Source of the DNA: Patellaria atrata CBS 101060
Taxonomy: Eukaryota; Ascomycota; Dothideomycetes; Patellariales; Patellariaceae
Reading direction: 5' to 3'
Length of the DNA stretch: 64,000 bases
Assembly: GCA_010093705.1 (NCBI GenBank)
Contig: MU006101.1
Coordinates: forward strand, 605,673-669,672
Shown here: one piece after another, positions 12,565 to 51,917 of the stretch
Numbering within the stretch: position 1 is the stretch's first letter
How the letters are laid out: each line of letters begins with the position of its first letter
Notes under the pieces: generated by a model
Databases searched by the model: none
The model's input: only the letters and a program-made list of their open reading frames with translations
Told to the model about the DNA's origin: nothing
Made by a program: the position numbers and the translations under genes

Positions 12565-13254
12565 TCACTTCTCATCTAACCGCGCACTCTCCCTCCTCAC
12601 CATCCGACGTATAGCTTCATTGCTAAGCCCCAGAACTCTTGCCATGTGAAATGTAGATCGTAGCTGCTCGGAAAGTGCATTTTCTGCCGCGGCGTTCCTT
12701 ACATTCCCTGCAGCGGCCTGCTGGCCTTGATGAGCAAGAAGGGATGTAGCAGGTGTCGAATTTTGGGTAGAGGGTTGAAGGACGGGATTTGCGTTAGTGT
12801 TTTCCTTGCGGTTTGATTAGCGTTTCCTAGACGACGGTATTAGAGGAGTAAGGACTTACGAGTGCACCGCTCGTCCTGGGGTTTGGTAATCTTGTTCGTG
12901 GCTGCGGGATGCTAGGCCTTATTCTCAACTTCTTCAGTGGTTTAGGAGGTTCGTCATCATCGCTTCTGCTGCCAATACAGATTTCTTCTTCGTTTACTCG
13001 CTGGGTGTATTTCTGTTCGGACCTTGTACTCCCTGGTTGTGGTGATGATGGAGGCAGATGAACAACCACGTGAACTTCTCCCGTTTACGATGTTCATCCC
13101 AGATGTGCTTGCATCGATCTCTCATGTTGTTGAATGTCCCGTGTATAAGCATGTCCTGGACGCTGCAGTAATCACACATAATTTCGCGTTTGGAGAGGTA
13201 GAGTCCGCCTGTTAGCGGCCAGTGTTGGGTATGGCCCCTAACGTTGCAAGGCAT
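12565..13254 (-). CDS. Small zinc-finger-like protein, family A copy 1 (unknown function)
   Basis: Not a family I recognise. Exons 13067..13254, 12860..13022 and 12565..12804 join in phase to about 196 residues, using a good GTAAGT donor after exon 2. The N terminus opens MPCNVRGH, then CDYC and, 19 residues later, HIWDEH, giving C-x4-H plus C-x2-C-x19-H-x4-H, a likely zinc site. A basic, proline-rich middle follows (RSDDDEPPKPLKKLRIRP), then a Gln/Ala/Asn-rich linker and a helical C-terminal segment with TFHMARVLGLSNEAIRRM. The gene at 28153 has the same order and spacing, so I treat the two as paralogues. The first intron is only 44 nt, which makes that junction the least certain. A nuclear or chromatin role is possible but is inference. 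Confidence 0.6.
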
Positions 13255-28152: not shown

Positions 28153-29306
28153 ATGGACAACTTAACTCTGGATTCTACCTTACAGGACAACCTTCTCATA
28201 TCAGGTCAAGGTGTCCACCTTTCCTTGCTTCTGCGTGGTCTTCCTCCTTACAGCATAATTATCAACATGCCATGCGACGAGATCGGACACAATCACCTAG
28301 GGCTCAAGCATGGTATACTTGTAGTCAGGTCTTGTGAAAAGTACTGTGGTTACTGTGATGGCGGTGAAAATGGGGATGAAGAGTTCCTCTCGCCGCAACA
28401 CCTGACTTACCATGTTCGTAAATGGCACATCAACAAAGAGGAAAAGCGTGATGTGGTAGTCGCTTCCATTACACCAAAATAGGCGAAGTAAGTAGTTCCA
28501 ACAGCATCATAAGATTCTTTCTCCCCTAACCCACATCGCATAGGCCCGTATCTTTTGGAAACGACCTACCACCTTATGAAGATTTCTTTGGTGAGCAATT
28601 TACTACGCCATCAAAGATAAAGTCTACATCCACCTCAATAACACAATCGGCACAAAGTACATCTGCAATGCAAGCTGGAGACAGTGGTGCTATCCCAACG
28701 CCCATACAACGCATCTTTTCTGCAAACACTTCCTTAAGTCACCCAGTTACCCCCGATGCAACCCTTGGTAAGACTGCGAGGCGGAATGAATTCTCTTTTT
28801 CAAACCCGTTTCAGCAGATGATATCGAGGCCGCAAAAAAGCCTTAGAAATGGAGACGGCAATTGTATGTCCGCTAATCGGCAACGCTCGTCTCCCATCAA
28901 TTTAGTGAGTGATGACGAAGAACACCGGGTACGCCAGGTGTTGGACCTCAGTCCAGATCCAACCCCGCGCCCTGAAACCCTCGAAGCAAATGTAAGTCCC
29001 TCGAACATCAGAGTTTGAGATCACTCTTTAACACTAAGTAGTAAGAAACCAGAACACCCCCTTACACCTCCCAGGTTGGCCATAAAACCTCCTATGAAGA
29101 GATTACCTAAAATACCTGCATCCGAACGCCGTCCATATAGGGGATATGCTCTTTAAGCTAGGGAAGAGATGGTGCAAAAGACTATTGGAGCGGCGTTCAA
29201 TACAGCTGAAGCAATGGGTATCGACAAGGATGAAGTGAAGAGCTTAAGTCTGGATGAGCTATTTATTTTCGATGCTGGACATGCGGATGTAATCCGCTTC
29301 AGATAA
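28153..29306 (+). pseudogene. Zinc-finger-like protein, family A copy 2, with in-frame stops
   Basis: Paralogue of the gene at 12565-13254. MPCDEIGH (ATG 28267) is followed by CGYC and, 18 residues later, HVRKWH, the same C-x4-H, C-x2-C, H-x4-H layout. A Ser/Thr/Pro-rich middle with INLVSDDEEH and a KPPMKRLPKIP stretch mirrors copy 1. The C-terminal segment GAAFNTAEAMGIDKDEVKSL matches TFHMARVLGLSNEAIRRM. Exons 28153..28487, 28544..28991 and from 29046 join in phase. However, a TAG at 28480-28482 sits seven bases before the canonical GTAAGT donor, and a TAA at 29154-29156 precedes the C-terminal segment. Both become CAG and CAA if T is read as C. After 29306 the frame is lost, though protein-like sequence follows to about 29420. 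A recently disabled host gene is the simplest reading. A shorter functional product is possible. Confidence 0.55.
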
Positions 29307-30381: not shown

Positions 30382-30514
30382 GCGACAGGGAGTAAAGGGG
30401 CACTTGGGATTGAGGTGGTGCTTGAGGGGGTAGTGTGGGTTGCTTAAGAGGGTCTATAAGGGTTGGTTGTTGATTGAAAATGGTAGTTTGATAGGTTTTG
30501 ATGCTTGACAGTGT

Positions 30515-31016
30515 GGAGCAGGCTTCTTCAAGTCATACTTGCAGAGGAATCGGAAAGGATACTGAAGGGAAATGTTTTGGAGACTGGAGGTTTATCCAAA
30601 CCCCAAGACATCTGATTCTTCACTGCAAACATTATTCCAAGGAACGAAAAATCATGGAAAAGCAGCTAAAGTCAAGAATAACATTAGAAAAACTCTTTTG
30701 TACAGAGAAGGGGAAAGAAGTACTCTTCCAATACTTACATAGTACACAAATCTCAACAGCTAACTGGCTGCTACATAAAAGAGAAATCAATGAAGAAGAA
30801 CAAGAAACCCATTAAAAATGATAGCATACAGGGGAAAAACTAGATCGATGTATAATGCAGGGAATTGAAGAGCAAAGGATATAGTGGAGTTGGTTCAGTT
30901 TTTCTAATGCTTGGATTAGACTGCAAAGTTTGAACAACTGGGGAGCTTCAATCCCCAGACACTCTCACTAGACATATTATTGCCCTAGAATAGGGATTTA
31001 TGTAGATAGAAGAGTA
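30515..31016 (+). mobile_element. LINE 3' end (Tad1-like), plus strand
   Basis: Reads as the C-terminal tail of a non-LTR retrotransposon ORF2: a zinc-knuckle-like segment (EGKCFGDWRF, TPRHLILHCKHYSKERK) followed by LEKLFCTEKGKEVLFQYLHST and a stop at 30815. This tail follows the RNase H domain in Tad1-type elements. The 3' untranslated part runs to a GGGATTTATGTAGATAG stretch at about 30993 that also occurs, inverted, in the copy at 31270-32300. The element is a 5'-truncated fragment and runs into the N gap. Its true 3' end is not visible. Confidence 0.75.
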
Positions 31017-32300: not shown

Positions 32301-32944
32301 CAGTTTCAGGCATCAGTCATATTTCATAACACCGAAGACTAACTTATACGACTATTTTAAGTGCCGTGTATGCCTTCGAGGACTTCAGCTTTGATTTTCC
32401 TTGCGTGCGAGCTTGAGAGATTAGTATATTGGCGTGGGCATAAAGAAGATGACCAGGGTGTTAGTGGAAGTGAAGAAGTAAACGATAGTGTAGAAGGTTC
32501 AGGGTGATAGCTAGGTATTAAGTCTACAGTGATGAGGCAGGGTCCCAGTCATTGCTATTGAGTGAGAATCGACATTGGGAGTTCTATATCTATACCAAAT
32601 TCTACCAAAGGATAAGCAAGCTGTGAGACCGATACTTTGCATATGATATAAGATCTTATTGGTAAAATTCCCCAATGAATACTTAAACTGTTATATGAGG
32701 TATATTACTGACCTTCACCCGTTGCCCCGGCAACCAGAAACCTTCACGAGTCACACTCTTACGTCATGGACTCCTAAGAGCTACACCAATACGGCATATG
32801 CCAGAATCTCGCAGTCACGAGATCTTTATCGCTGCCTACGCCAAGCCCGACTCAGAACAAAGGCACGCTCCGCCGCTTAATTTCTATCTTTCTACTTCTC
32901 CACCTCAACCTCAACCACCATTCTTAGAGGTTCTCACTACAACA
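32301..32944. other. Upstream region of coiled-coil gene
   Basis: Probably holds the remaining LINE 5' flank and the promoter of the next gene. The long frame of the downstream gene is open from ATG 32798, but the better start is at 32945, so 32798-32944 is taken as leader. Confidence 0.4.
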
Positions 32945-35305
32945 ATGACTCTCAACAAATCTTCCGCTCCGTCGTCGGCTATGGACGCTGCAGTCGCTCA
33001 GCTCAGGTCCGACAATCTTGGCGCAGGCGTGTGTAAGGATGCAGGCGATTCAGTCGCCGCCTGTTCCGGTTCCGGCTGGAACTCTTTGCGCTGCTCCGGC
33101 CTTTGGGACGGAGTTAACACTTATTACGACAAGATGGTTGTACCCAATCCAGATGAAGCACAAGGCGTTGCGCGCGCAGAGAACACTCAGATCTTTGGAG
33201 ATACGCTGTTCCCACCTGCGAAGGAGACGTTCGTCAACGGGGCAGAATTTGGTGACGTAAAAGGTAAATACAGCACTCGCCCCTCTGACATGAAAGCGCT
33301 GTGGGCCGAATGGGACGAAAAGCCTTGTGGCAGCAGTGCGCCCAAGGGAGACGGAATTAACACACCAGATACTGGTGTGAATCCAGATAGCAAAGCACCC
33401 AACGAAGAGGGAATCAACACAATTCATACCTACAAACAAGAGATTCTCGACATCGCTCGATTTCAACACGGAAACAATAGCTTCAACTACCCGAAATTGA
33501 ACGTCATCCTTGACGTCAACGAAGGTCATTATCGCGCTTTACTCGTGTTGACCGAAAATCAAATTAGACAGCTTTCTAAGAAGTTGAAGAGGGCTACGGG
33601 CAAAGAAGATAAGAGTACTGTTGTCACCGCCGGGGTTTGGGCTCCAAATAGGATTGCCGCACTGGCTGATTTGATGGAAAAGGTCGAAGGGACATTAGCT
33701 AAGAATCTACCGAAGCTAGTCGACATTGACAATCTGAAAGAGGGAGTAAACCCTAAGGTCAATCCAACTGCTTCTAAGGCCGTAGAAAATGATTTCGACA
33801 AGGCCCAAAAGCGAACAAAGGCCCTTCGTGAAGATTTTCAAGCGCAGAAAGTCTCTTTTAGTGCCGACACGGCATCCTCCTACCTACCTTTAACGGATAG
33901 TGACAGTCCATTGGAATCGAATGAAGAGAATAAATGGAATACTGAGTTCAAACGACCTCTTCCTCCACCTTGCCAGAAGTTACCTAAGGCAAAGGTATCC
34001 GAATCGAAGAATAGTTTCATGTTTCATCCCCTTGATACCGCATCACAGGCCTTTAAAACCCAAGAATATAGTTCAAAGGAGCCTCAGATGGACCCGTTCA
34101 TGTCATTCCTGCACGCAGTTAGACAAAGCCCCCTTGGACCGACTCATATACCTGCTTCGGACAATTTGCTATCGAAAGTTTATCAGAACGAGAACAGATC
34201 TCTGCTTGAAGAGCTTGTGCGCGCCAAATCAAGCTTGGCGACGGACAACCGCAATCCGAATGTAGACTTGGAGCTCGCAGAGCGTATGAACAAGACTCAT
34301 CTGAAAGAGCTCAGCATTCTTAGTTCTATCAAGAGAATGGAGGGTGGAAACCATGCAGACAAGACTCGTCAAAATAGGGCCATACATCTACGCGTTGAGT
34401 TGGAGAGTGTCGAGAAGACCCACCGTAGTGAAATTGATGAGGTCTTTAACAAACTGAAGACTGTTGAACAGCCTAAAGCACCCTTGCCCAAAGATAATCA
34501 GCTCCAGGGGGTAGTAGAGTTTGAAAAGAGCACGAAAACGCACGAAGATGTTAAGAATATGCAGAATTTGGAGGATGAGATGAAGCCTGTTCAGGATGTC
34601 GACGCACTCAATGAATTGAACTGGTCGAGGGAATGCCCACCCAAATCATCCAATGCTGAGGAGCTACAGAGGAAATTAGACCTAGAGAAGGACGCCAACA
34701 TGAAGTATCAAGCTGAAATTGCTGAGATGCGTACGAAGACAAACGCTACGCAAATCGCAAATACGAACTCCCGAAAGGAAATTCTAGAGCTACGTGAGGA
34801 TCTAGAGTTCACAAACAAGAGCAACTCGGAAATGATACTCGAAATAAGCAAACTGCGTAAAGAGTTGAAGATTGCAGAGGATTCTGGCAAGAGGCAACAA
34901 ACCGAGCTTGGTAAAGTGCGTGATGATTTGAAGATCGTGGAGTGTGGGATGCAACGGGACCAGGGGAATATCAAGGAACTCAAATCGAAGCTGAGGGACG
35001 AGCAGGATCGTCACGAGAACGAAAAATCAGCTAATCGGGAATTACGCACAAAGTTAGGCTCTGCGGAAAAAGCCAACAAGGAGCACCATTTGACCATCGG
35101 CAAGCTACGCGCAGAGTTAGATCTTGCTCAGACCTCTGGAGCGACCCTTAAGGTTCGTAACTGCATGCTACGCCATGACTTAAACTATGTAAAGGAGGAC
35201 AACAATCAGCTTCGGAGACAGGTTGAGCAGCTAGCCGAGAAGTTTGATCATGTAGAATGCGCGAATATAGACTTCGCATCCGATAGTCTAAAGCTATGCG
35301 AATAA
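32945..35305 (+). CDS. Large coiled-coil protein with N-terminal 'YRAL' domain (unknown function)
   Basis: Unrecognised. The ATG at 32945 (context CAACAATGA) is preferred over the upstream in-frame ATG at 32798, whose extension is low-complexity. The product is about 786 residues to the TAA at 35303. Residues about 184-250 (KLNVILDVNEGHYRALLVL, KLKRATGK, RIAALADLMEKVE) resemble the 116-residue protein encoded at 29731. From about residue 440 on, the protein is almost entirely coiled coil with repeated heptads rich in Glu, Lys, Leu and Asn (for example ELRKELKIAEDSGKR-type and TKLGSAEKANKEHHL-type units). No membrane segment or enzyme motif. The frame continues with the same coiled-coil character beyond the stop, so the TAA may be a recent nonsense change and the intact protein may be about 983 residues. 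Scaffold or tethering roles are guesses. Confidence 0.6.
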   Translation: MTLNKSSAPSSAMDAAVAQLRSDNLGAGVCKDAGDSVAACSGSGWNSLRCSGLWDGVNTYYDKMVVPNPDEAQGVARAENTQIFGDTLFPPAKETFVNGAEFGDVKGKYSTRPSDMKALWAEWDEKPCGSSAPKGDGINTPDTGVNPDSKAPNEEGINTIHTYKQEILDIARFQHGNNSFNYPKLNVILDVNEGHYRALLVLTENQIRQLSKKLKRATGKEDKSTVVTAGVWAPNRIAALADLMEKVEGTLAKNLPKLVDIDNLKEGVNPKVNPTASKAVENDFDKAQKRTKALREDFQAQKVSFSADTASSYLPLTDSDSPLESNEENKWNTEFKRPLPPPCQKLPKAKVSESKNSFMFHPLDTASQAFKTQEYSSKEPQMDPFMSFLHAVRQSPLGPTHIPASDNLLSKVYQNENRSLLEELVRAKSSLATDNRNPNVDLELAERMNKTHLKELSILSSIKRMEGGNHADKTRQNRAIHLRVELESVEKTHRSEIDEVFNKLKTVEQPKAPLPKDNQLQGVVEFEKSTKTHEDVKNMQNLEDEMKPVQDVDALNELNWSRECPPKSSNAEELQRKLDLEKDANMKYQAEIAEMRTKTNATQIANTNSRKEILELREDLEFTNKSNSEMILEISKLRKELKIAEDSGKRQQTELGKVRDDLKIVECGMQRDQGNIKELKSKLRDEQDRHENEKSANRELRTKLGSAEKANKEHHLTIGKLRAELDLAQTSGATLKVRNCMLRHDLNYVKEDNNQLRRQVEQLAEKFDHVECANIDFASDSLKLCE

Positions 35306-35896
35306 TTTGAGAAGTCAGAGCAAGCGAACAAGCAGTTATCCAACGAGAATGAAAAGTTCCGCGAGCGTTTGGAGCAGGCCAAAGAAGATGCGAATAAATT
35401 TCACCAAGATGAGCTTGAGGGGCTGCGCGAAAAGCTGTGGGAAGCAGAGTACATCAAGGACAACCACAAAGTTACTATAGGTGATCTATACGAAGACTTA
35501 AAGCTTTCAGGGGAGAAAGAGAAGTCTTACGCAACCGAGATCGAGAACTTGCGCAAGAAGTTAGCTGTCGCCGAACGTGCCAACGCAGCACACAACAAGA
35601 TCAACTATACACTTCCCCAGTCAAAGTTCCCGGGCTTTTCAAATGATACTTTCCAATCCAAGGACAACTGGCCTTTCGAGGATCACCACCCGAGATATAA
35701 ACAAACGGATAGACCGAAGAAGCCAGGGGCGCGTAAGATGTCTACTACGGCATGGACCTGGACGGATACACAGGGGAAGGATCAAGATTCCAAGGAGGAT
35801 GCATGCCTGGATTATGATTCGGACGATTGGGTTAAAGAAAGGTTTAACCATCAGCGGCCTGATTCCGAGACAGGACTGGGGCGAAGAACAGGTTAG
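35306..35896 (+). pseudogene. In-frame continuation of the coiled-coil gene beyond a TAA
   Basis: Directly after TAA 35303-35305 the same frame stays open for 196 codons to a TAG at 35894. It begins FEKSEQANKQLSNENEK and continues with the same heptad pattern (EDANKFHQDELEGLREKLWE), then an Asp/Lys/Trp-rich tail containing DYDSDDWVKERF. Composition and coiled-coil phase match the upstream part, so this was part of the protein. Whether it is still translated (readthrough), is lost, or the stop is a sequencing error cannot be told. Confidence 0.6.
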
Positions 35897-40415: not shown

Positions 40416-42478
40416 TCACGCGTTTTCCATATTTTGGCCACCGCGACCTCTGGGTGCAAAGCCTCCTCGATGACCTCTAAACGGCCCACGCCCCCTGCCG
40501 AATCCGCGTCCCCTTCCGCGTCCACGGTGTCCGCCGTGGTAACTATCCACATTGCTTTGTCCAAAGGTCTCAAGATTTTTCTTCCGCTCTTCGGCCCTGA
40601 ACTCAGAGCCTCCCAGCTTAGCATCTTCCCTGTCTTTGAGTTCACTCGAGATGTTATCGAAGAACGAGGTAGACTTGTTGTAAGTAGCGGTTGAAGAGCC
40701 CGGGATGACAACATCCTCCTTAGAATCCCCGCCATTTATATAGCAGGTTTCTCCATTGAGGCCGTTAGCAGGTGTTTCAGTAACAGGAGAACCCGTAGCA
40801 ATCGCCTCCTTGACAAGATCTTGCTTGTTGAACTTCGCATTCGCGGACTGGAAATCGAAATCGGTTTCTGGGACCTCCACTTTAGCTGAATGATGGTCTC
40901 GTCCGCTACCACGACGACCTCCACGGCCACGGTGGTCGCCACGATGGTCACCACGATATCCCCCAGCTCCGTATCCACCTCTTGCTTGGCGAATTTGGTC
41001 ATTAGTGCGCATTTCATTCACCTTCTTTGTAAGATTATCGATTGCACCGTCGTTCGTTGTCACCTTCTGTGTTCCGGGAGCAGGTGGTAATTTCGCCATA
41101 GCGGCAGCAACAGCAGCAGTTGCTGCTTGAGTAGCATTCTGATACTGAACTGTAGGATTAACAGTCGCTTGAGTAGGTTGAGAACTACTTGCAGCGCCCG
41201 TCGCGGTTTTGGGCTTCATTATCATGCCCGAAAGAGGAACTGCAGGTACAACCCGTCCAGACTTAGGCCCTGTGGGCGCTGCATTCGCTGCATTTGAGGG
41301 TTGGTTCTGTGGGGAAGCCACGGGGGCTGGGGGAGCAAGAGCTACAGCAGGATCAGGCTTCGATTCCAGGGGAGGAGGAGGAGCCTGTGCTGATACTACG
41401 GGTGTTGGAGTTGAGGTCTTGCTAATTGGCTTTGTGTCTGTAGATTTCTTGGGCGCCTCCCCATCTGGCGTCTTCTTTTCATTATCCCCCTTCTCCTTGT
41501 TCGCAGTGGGACCAATTGGAATAGGCTTCGTATCGCGCTGGTTCTGTTGAACTGCGCCTTGTCCAGGAGGACCGATAGGGCCCTGATTACCCTGTGCTGA
41601 GAAAGGACCCGGAGGGTGTGGGAATCCTTGACCAGGGGGTGGGTACCAACCAGGAGGAGCACCATAGGGCATGCCGGGATAGGGAGGGAAAGGCCCAGGG
41701 CCTCCAGGAAAACCACCTGGTGGGCCAAAACGTTGACTGTGGAATGGAGGATACGGTGGTTGGAAAGGTGGAGGAGGGTATGGATGACCTTGAGGAGAAA
41801 ATTGTTGTGGGGGTGCCTGTCGATTCTGTTGCTGCGCTGAAGTAGATGTAGGCGGTGGGGGAGGTCGGGCGGCCTTTTGCAAATTTATAGTCAGCTATCG
41901 AAAGACTGTCGCGCGATGTAGTTGGGTACATAAATGAAAAGACTTAATCAGAAGGAAGGCAACGGAAATTTCCACATAGTTTTTGCGCCATCGGTATTGT
42001 TTTTACATCCAATATGTTTCATCATACAAGAATTAGGAGAGAGTAATGGTAATGAGCTTTGGAGTCTTACACCAAGAATCGCAGGGTCATTTGGCACAGG
42101 TGGCTGCGGCGGTTTATTCTCCTTTGGAGGTTCTTCGATTCTGAGATCTTTCACATCGCTTCCTCTGAAGACAATGTACTCATAAATGTTATCCGAAGCG
42201 GGAACCTCTTCGTCAGGTCGCCGACCTTCAGTACCGTGGGAGATGACATTTTCGAGCGCGACTGTGGATTTTTCTGAGTTGATCTCGTGAAGAGTCCCAA
42301 CATAACTGGAGATGGAAGTTAGTACTATTGGAGCTATTTATACTAAATTCTGGGTCATACCGTATATCGCTCTTTGAGATGAGCGATATGCGAGACCTGT
42401 TTGAAGCTCATTGTCAGCTTATTCGTCTCGTGCCTATTCGGAGTCGGTCGCAGTTACGGACCCTATGAACTCAGACAT
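40416..42478 (-). CDS. SCD6: Scd6/LSM14-family translational repressor (P-body protein)
   Basis: Cytoplasmic mRNP protein that binds eIF4G/eIF4E-type factors and the decapping machinery and represses translation. Exons 42462..42478, 42361..42396, 42071..42305 and 40416..41873 join in phase to about 581 residues. The N-terminal LSm14 domain (residues 1-96) has MSEFIGSRISLISKSDIRYV, then GTLHEINSEKSTVALENV and YEYIVFRGSDVKDL. A long Pro/Gln/Gly-rich disordered region follows. Then come the FDF motif (ETDFDFQSANAKFNK), the FFD box (YNKSTSFFDNISSEL), the TFG box (EERKKNLETFGQSNVD) and RGG repeats flanking them, all in family order. The first exon is 17 nt and the second 36 nt. The first donor is GTCCGT, unusual but required by phase. 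A CTGAC branch point precedes the last acceptor. Confidence 0.93.
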
Positions 42479-50703: not shown

Positions 50704-51917
50704 TCAGACACCAACGCAATACTGATATCCAAGCCACAGATTTGTACAGTCCGGTAGAATTTCCGTGTTCCATTGCCGTAGCTGGGCTAGAGTCACACTG
50801 AACTGCGACTGTATGGTCGCGCAAGTATTTCCACTGGCTACGGTGTAGAACTTCTTGCAATTGGAAACCACGCCAGGAGCCGTGGGCGAAGGAGCCGCAG
50901 TTGAGGTAGTACTCGTTGGTTTCGCCGACGTGGATGTTGGCTTGGTCGTAGTGGTAGGTTTGGAAGTGGTTGAAGACTTAGAAGTAGGAGTAGGGGTAGG
51001 AGTAGGTTTGGATGTGGTTGTTGGCTTGACAACGACCCCATTATTGTTCCCAATCGTGTTTTCATTGCATCCTGACTTGGCGTTGACCCATCCTGTCAAC
51101 CTATTGGCAATGTCTGATGCGTAGCAATGCGTAGCAATACCCTTGCCTAAGTTCTTTGACGGATCGATACTTCCGGAGTTGTAAAGCCTCGCCGCCTTGT
51201 AAAACCTACTGATATCGGTAGCGCCAGATCGAGCAACGCACTGCCTCAATCCTTCACCAGACTTGGTTCCATTCGCACCGTCCATGAGCATTTGCAAGAT
51301 AGTAGCCGTCGGACACGGGTTCGTGACCTTGTTCTTGTCGTTGCAAGTCCCTACGCCATTATGGGATTGCATCAACCCAGGATTACGGACGCCATTGTTT
51401 GTTGTGGGAGCGCGAACACAGCCTTTGCTCTCTTGCATTATGACGGCAAGGACGAAACGGCGATCCATTCCAGCTGCCTTTGCCGCTGTCGTGATACTTT
51501 GGAAAATAGCAGTGATTTCAGCGTCGCTATTGTTGGGAAGGTTCCAGATATTCTTGCAAGAAGCTTTCATCAACGGTTTGTTGGCAGTAAACCTAAAACT
51601 TATTTCAGCACTGGATATTTAAACGATACAATGAGTAATCGTACATCTCCTCGTATGTTTTCCACCAAAGAGGGAGGTCAGGCCACCCATTGAGAATGTC
51701 ACCAGTACCGCCATAGACTTTGTATGTGTCTGTAGCGCGCTCTTCGAATGAATGGACGTGTAAGCTTTCATGATAGGCAGCATGACCATGACGTCTGGAG
51801 AGAGTTGCTCCCAAAGTGAATGAAGAAAAAGTGGCGGCAGCCACAATCTGTCCCTGGATCAGTCTTCAACTTTCCCTTCTCGTCACAGGAGAGTCTCACC
51901 AAAGGAGTATATAACAT
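50704..51917 (-). CDS. Secreted transglycosylase-like (lysozyme fold) protein with C-terminal LysM
   Basis: Exons 51900..51917, 51645..51847 and 50704..51592 join in phase to 369 residues. The six-codon first exon supplies the start of a signal peptide: MLYTPL joined to IVAAATFSSFTLGATLS. The mature N terminus is followed by a lysozyme-like SLT-type domain (about residues 90-245) with RRFVLAVIMQESKGCV, Glu128 being the likely catalytic acid, then PGLMQSHNGVGTC and ARLYNSGSID, and several cysteines. A Thr/Ser/Pro/Lys linker (about 258-315) leads to one LysM (CBM50) domain at the C terminus with FYTVASGNTCATIQSQF and LWLGYQYCVGV. LysM binds chitin or peptidoglycan fragments. The pairing with a muramidase-like fold suggests bacterial or fungal cell wall as target; activity is not shown. 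The internal ATG used by a simple ORF call would lose the signal. Confidence 0.85.

Follow-up and report, generated by a model that had tools for sequence, protein, structure and literature searches.

A small, partly decayed family of proteins with a probable C2H2-type finger behind a conserved N-terminal extension

Two genes in the window, a stretch of 64,000 nucleotides (G000:C13:605673-669672), belong to a small protein family together with two further genes found by searching the genome (28.3 Mb, 46 contigs). We refer to the window genes as A and B and to the other two as C and D. On balance we favor the reading that the four are paralogues carrying a C2H2-type finger, C-x2-C-x(12-19)-H-x4-H, behind a conserved N-terminal extension, and that they are probably nuclear regulators. 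The family is real, small and partly decayed, and it departs modestly from a well-known protein type. An earlier note on this DNA had described a two-copy family. The kinship of A and B stood, being recovered with a profile from which A had been left out, but the count did not, as the genome searches set a lower bound of at least four members once C and D are added.

All four predicted proteins share M-P-C-x(4,5)-H, one invariant glutamate, C-x2-C and H-x4-H, with M1, P2, C3, H8, E24, C27, C30 and the two histidines invariant in 4/4 members. The MPCxxxGH, CxxC and H-x4-H elements previously described for A and B were indeed seen, as MPCNVRGH, CDYC and HIWDEH in A and as MPCDEIGH, CGYC and HVRKWH in B, and the first 30 residues of the two align without gaps. 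The acidic SDD[DE]E and the basic proline-rich middle were likewise found (SDDDE in A, SDDEE in B). All six of the ligands proposed from A and B are kept in C and D. Across the six frames of the window, MPC followed 15-35 residues on by C-x(2,4)-C occurs at A and B and nowhere else.

Kinship was assessed by shuffling and by profile comparison. The local scores of 97 for B-C and 63 for A-C were not reached by any of 2000 shuffles, and the same held for B-D and C-D (0/2000 each). The A-B score of 46 was reached by 4/2000 shuffles, and the likeness of A to D is at chance (400/2000). With Cys and His masked, A-C and B-C gave 20/2000 and 33/2000, respectively. The earlier expectation that A and B would align better than shuffled sequences thus held for the complete sequences, but the pair fell to chance with these residues masked (1640/2000). 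A and B could then be unrelated, their Cys/His spacing having arisen by chance in unrelated or non-coding ORFs; that a genome search with A exon 1 matched nothing but A itself at E ≤ 10, and that A-D is insignificant, would agree with this. We nevertheless consider such a coincidence very unlikely, given the A-C result with and without masking, the matches of B, C and D to one another, and the recovery of A by profiles that do not contain it. Against 1209 window segments, a B+C+D profile placed A second after B (itself in the profile) at 16.8 bits and E 3.9e-4, the third segment having E 2 and the best score in 20 shuffled sets being 11.1. A C+D profile found B at E 1.8e-9 and A at 9.9 bits (E 0.055; best of 20 shuffled sets, 10.4). 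The profile-profile check suggested in the earlier note also came out in favor of kinship: with A left out, hhalign of B+C+D against A gave probability 89 and a score of 33.0, reached by 0/200 shuffles (maximum 22.1) and 0/200 other window segments (maximum 17.6), in an alignment that covers residues 1-31 only. An hhalign value of 99.5% for A was discarded as circular, A being already inside that profile. On these sequence comparisons B, C and D are firmly assigned to one family, which A would join mainly via its first 30 residues.

C (G000:C28:110497+, 721 or 722 residues) and D (G000:C28:108403-, 323 residues) lie at one locus (L012, G000:C28:106000-115900), head to head and divergent, with starts 2.1 kb apart. 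A and B are also divergent, at a distance of 15 kb and with other genes in between. As a query against the whole genome, B returned C as the single other place (E 0.0046), C returned B (E 1.6e-4, 40% identity across 63 residues), and D returned B at E 0.011. A consensus query found C, B and A (E 7.6e-4) plus D as a fourth place (E 0.015), and a second consensus again recovered these four, with D, B and C ranking ahead of A (E 0.06). Scanning 81 loci, including those around genome C2H2 matches, for the pattern yielded nine distinct matches, namely the four members and five fingers lacking the MPC start. Two loci with weak matches to B exon 2 (L010 and L011) were dropped, as they have no MPC-finger pattern. 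Scanned once each with a single short peptide pattern, prokaryote genomes gave 32 pattern matches and viral contigs 14, with no confirmed relative in either. A search of literature text found no paper on the family, which may nonetheless have been described, sequence not being searchable in text.

Gene A lies on the minus strand (13254-12565), with its ATG at 13254 and two introns. Exon 1 (13089..13254, minus) encodes MPCNVRGHTQHWPLTGGLYLSKREIMCDYCSVQDMLIHGTFNNMRDRCKHIWDEH, comprising the MPC start, C3 and H8, CDYC and HIWDEH, and is backed by both its sequence and the family match. A predicted phase-1 intron of 56 nt (13033..13088, minus; GTAAAC...CAG) separates it from exon 2 (12860..13032, minus), delimited from the open frame, in which SDDDE and the basic proline-rich middle, SRSDDDEPPKPLKKLRIRPSIPQPRTRLPNP, are found. 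The second intron region (12719..12859, minus) has a GTAAGT donor at 12859 and in-frame canonical CAG acceptors ending at 12721 and 12718, and a further in-frame acceptor is the non-canonical AAG at 12805. The last exon (12565..12717, minus) contributes a C-terminal helix pair, STFHMARVLGLSNEAIRRMV, and the stop; this piece was modelled as two helices with a break at LGLSN and a mean pLDDT of 70.7. The predicted product has 164 or 163 residues with the CAG acceptors (12721 and 12718) versus 192 with the AAG (12805), and none of these splice models, built from sequence alone, contains an interrupting stop. Gene A could therefore specify a protein of 163-192 residues. In codon use, by a weak test, the modelled frame of exons 1 and 2 is not the best and is not clearly coding.

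Gene B, on the plus strand, had been described as a gene at 28153-29306, an account that we revise in two respects. The start at 28153 was rejected in favor of the homologous ATG at 28267, which is most likely correct because the other members (A, C and D) all start at MPC, and the frame contains an in-frame TAG and a TAA. Exon 1 (28267..28482, plus) runs from MPC to the TAG and encodes 71 residues with C3, H8, H10, C23, CGYC and HVRKWH. The TAG (28480-28482) sits right before the good donor GTAAGT (28488) of a predicted 56-nt intron (28488..28543, plus; GTAAGT...CTAAC...TAG, with a CTAAC branch site, phase 2), beyond which the frame continues that preceding the TAG. Exon 2 (28544..28991, plus) is a low-complexity middle with SDDEE. 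The last exon frame (29046..29306, plus), with the C-terminal helix motif AAFNTAEAMGIDKDEV, is broken by the TAA at 29154-29156. For the donor at 28992 we found no canonical in-frame acceptor, the last-exon frame being reachable via AAG or GAG and never via TAG or CAG. Given the two stops and a last exon without a canonical acceptor, gene B is probably a pseudogene or the source of the 71-residue finger alone; the stops might conceivably be sequencing errors. Codon use, again a weak test, scored the modelled frame best in the B exons. A (12859-12805, minus) and B (28992-29045, plus) have a common phase-0 donor, GTAAGTCC, and in either gene a rare AAG acceptor is needed to place the C-terminal frame behind an intron of 54-55 nt, A having canonical acceptors further on as well. 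In each of B, C and D the first intron is in phase 2 and follows the finger; in A it is in phase 1.

The C-terminal helix pattern noted earlier for A and B is present in both (A-B, 3/2000 shuffles), but it is not diagnostic. A finger-less protein on another contig has it (L005, G000:C15:68327-68506; L005:322-1713, plus; a 464-codon frame with no Pfam match), and it is not clearly present in C or D. The C-terminal LFRLARSAGIPREEFERIV of that protein matches the C terminus of A (A-L005, 0/2000; genome E 0.08), whereas no MPC/finger pattern was found across its locus, and it was dropped as a family member. Among the remaining pairs, shuffles reached the score 18 (B-L005), 41 (C-L005), 303 (C-D), 628 (B-C), 872 (B-D), 1005 (A-C), 1266 (D-L005) and 1823 (A-D) times in 2000. 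The A C terminus also has a weak Pfam match to HTH_50 (E 0.059). The motif, a common helix-turn-helix shape, was accordingly rejected as a hallmark that would define the family.

As to the finger itself, the ligands C-x(2,4)-C...H-x(3,5)-H are present in 4/4 members, and the F/Y-x5-L-x2-H core is present in 3/4, with F in B and C and Y in D; A has the F but an R at the L position. The C finger is canonical, C-x2-C-x12-H-x4-H with its F and L core in place. Five Pfam C2H2 models match it below their cut-offs, among them zf-C2H2_4 as the best (E 1.8e-4) and zf-C2H2 (E 0.0042); the best score is 22.4 bits versus a cut-off of 27, and no Pfam C2H2 cut-off is passed. PF13894 matches 86 places in the genome, including the C finger. 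Against PDB, the four-member profile matched 15 sequences with E values from 0.055 to 6.8, each weak singly but together consistent: 12 were zinc-finger proteins or peptides, two were KCMF1, and one was a radical SAM protein. The earlier statement that no known family has this arrangement was therefore too strong, in view of the five models matching C and of PDB matches that are almost all C2H2. We infer C2H2 kinship for the family and do not claim formal Pfam membership; annotation pipelines would miss the family because each finger scores under the cut-off. Several observations weigh against the C2H2 reading. Besides the scores below curated cut-offs in C, exon 1 of A, B and D had no C2H2 match in Pfam at E ≤ 10. 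A deviates by its R at the classical L and its phase-1 first intron, it is tied to the family mainly by its first 30 residues, and its exons 1 and 2 are not clearly coding by codon use. The AF2 model of B exon 1 with A, made from the window sequences alone, was uninformative at pLDDT 35.1.

The single radical SAM chain among the PDB matches (E 0.24) bears on another interpretation, namely that C23, C27 and C30 of B, C and D form CxxxCxxC, the radical SAM iron-sulfur motif. B also weakly matches Radical_SAM (E 0.0094), and one family member matches viperin at E 0.029. We take these weak matches as chance, arising because B, C and D contain CxxxCxxC. All of them are far below the cut-offs (16.6 bits versus 29.5 for B), CxxxCxxC is lost in A, H-x4-H is invariant in 4/4 members, exon 1 spans some 70 residues, and Pfam matches nothing in the remainder of C or D, so that no barrel is seen; we regard the iron-sulfur interpretation as extremely improbable.

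In front of the finger, the extension reads M-P-C-x(4,5)-H-x(1,2)-H-x(0,1)-W-P, without W-P in B. H10 and C23 are common to B, C and D (in D numbering, H9/H11 and C27 correspond to H8/H10 and C23), and A has H11 and R23. For B, C and D, the residues C3, H8, H10 and C23 are thus a possible second set of four putative zinc ligands; in A a second site is less plausible. It is conceivable, though we think it rather unlikely, that the first ∼55 residues make up a compact two-zinc module, an extended C2H2 finger absent from Pfam, with A as a derived form whose first site is missing its fourth ligand. Should the extension truly hold a zinc ion of its own, the module would represent a small new design built on the DNA-binding fold that is commonest in eukaryotes, with the family supplying candidate regulators in a fungus; if it does not, these are ordinary, weakly conserved single C2H2-finger proteins.

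Under the favored C2H2 reading, the CxxC/HxxxxH set most likely holds one zinc ion, zinc binding by these residues being a likely prediction from the sequence. The extension would either pack on the finger or use C3, H8, H10 and C23 to hold another zinc ion, the latter in B, C and D. A nuclear location of the proteins is probable, as suggested by the basic stretches in A, B and D: in D, two K/R clusters flank an acidic stretch (KNPRKRK...PKRRKREK), and in A and B the stretches are proline rich. The single finger and the basic residues may then bind DNA or chromatin, for which we see about even odds, and the disordered middle and the C-terminal helices may contact partners. RNA and proteins are also known targets of single C2H2 fingers, and the finger here could instead be a protein- or RNA-binding module of adaptors that work via their C-terminal helices. 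One finger per protein, the long low-complexity middles and the two modelled helices of A would suit adaptors, but the basic stretches that A, B and D have beside their fingers suit a nuclear nucleic-acid binder; adaptors are accordingly possible but doubtful.

The intron-containing genes of the window, its Pfam matches to glycosyl hydrolase 63 and SNRNP27, and a snr52-like snoRNA would fit a filamentous fungus. The snoRNA, of the C/D class (snoZ13/snr52), lies at 41940-42034 (minus; 84.6 bits). At 50707-51618 (minus) is a protein with a LysM match above the cut-off and a Lysozyme-like/SLT match under it. A long coiled-coil-like ORF near B (32699-35896, plus), the second half of which matches Cep57_CLD_2 below the cut-off, has a single in-frame TAA (35303-35305) followed by 196 more residues in frame and is possibly another broken gene. 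A short ORF at 30501-30815 (plus) has no Pfam match; we take it to resemble the C-terminal end of a protein from a LINE-type retrotransposon.

With respect to known systems, BED fingers have an aromatic residue upstream of CxxC and a long CxxC-to-His spacing. The upstream W and the long spacing in the family resemble these features, and the finger might thus be transposon derived (BED-like) and the family domesticated or relic mobile DNA; the broken state of B and the LINE-like ORF near it would fit. However, zf-BED is absent from the Pfam matches of exon 1 of A, B, C and D at E ≤ 10, C has classical C2H2 spacing, and no transposase lies beside the members in the sequence read, so that we regard this origin as quite unlikely. 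The classical C2H2 finger (PF00096, PF13894) is closer: the family has its CxxC and H-x4-H, B, C and D have its F/Y-x5-L-x2-H core, and C has its exact spacing together with the sub-threshold matches. The family differs from it in spacing, since 12 residues separate the Cys pair from the His pair in C versus 17 in D, 18 in B and 19 in A; the stretch from CxxC to the aromatic core position is longer by 5 residues in D, by 6 in B and by 7 in A. It differs further in having a single finger, scores that are all under the Pfam cut-offs, and a conserved MPC...H extension in front.
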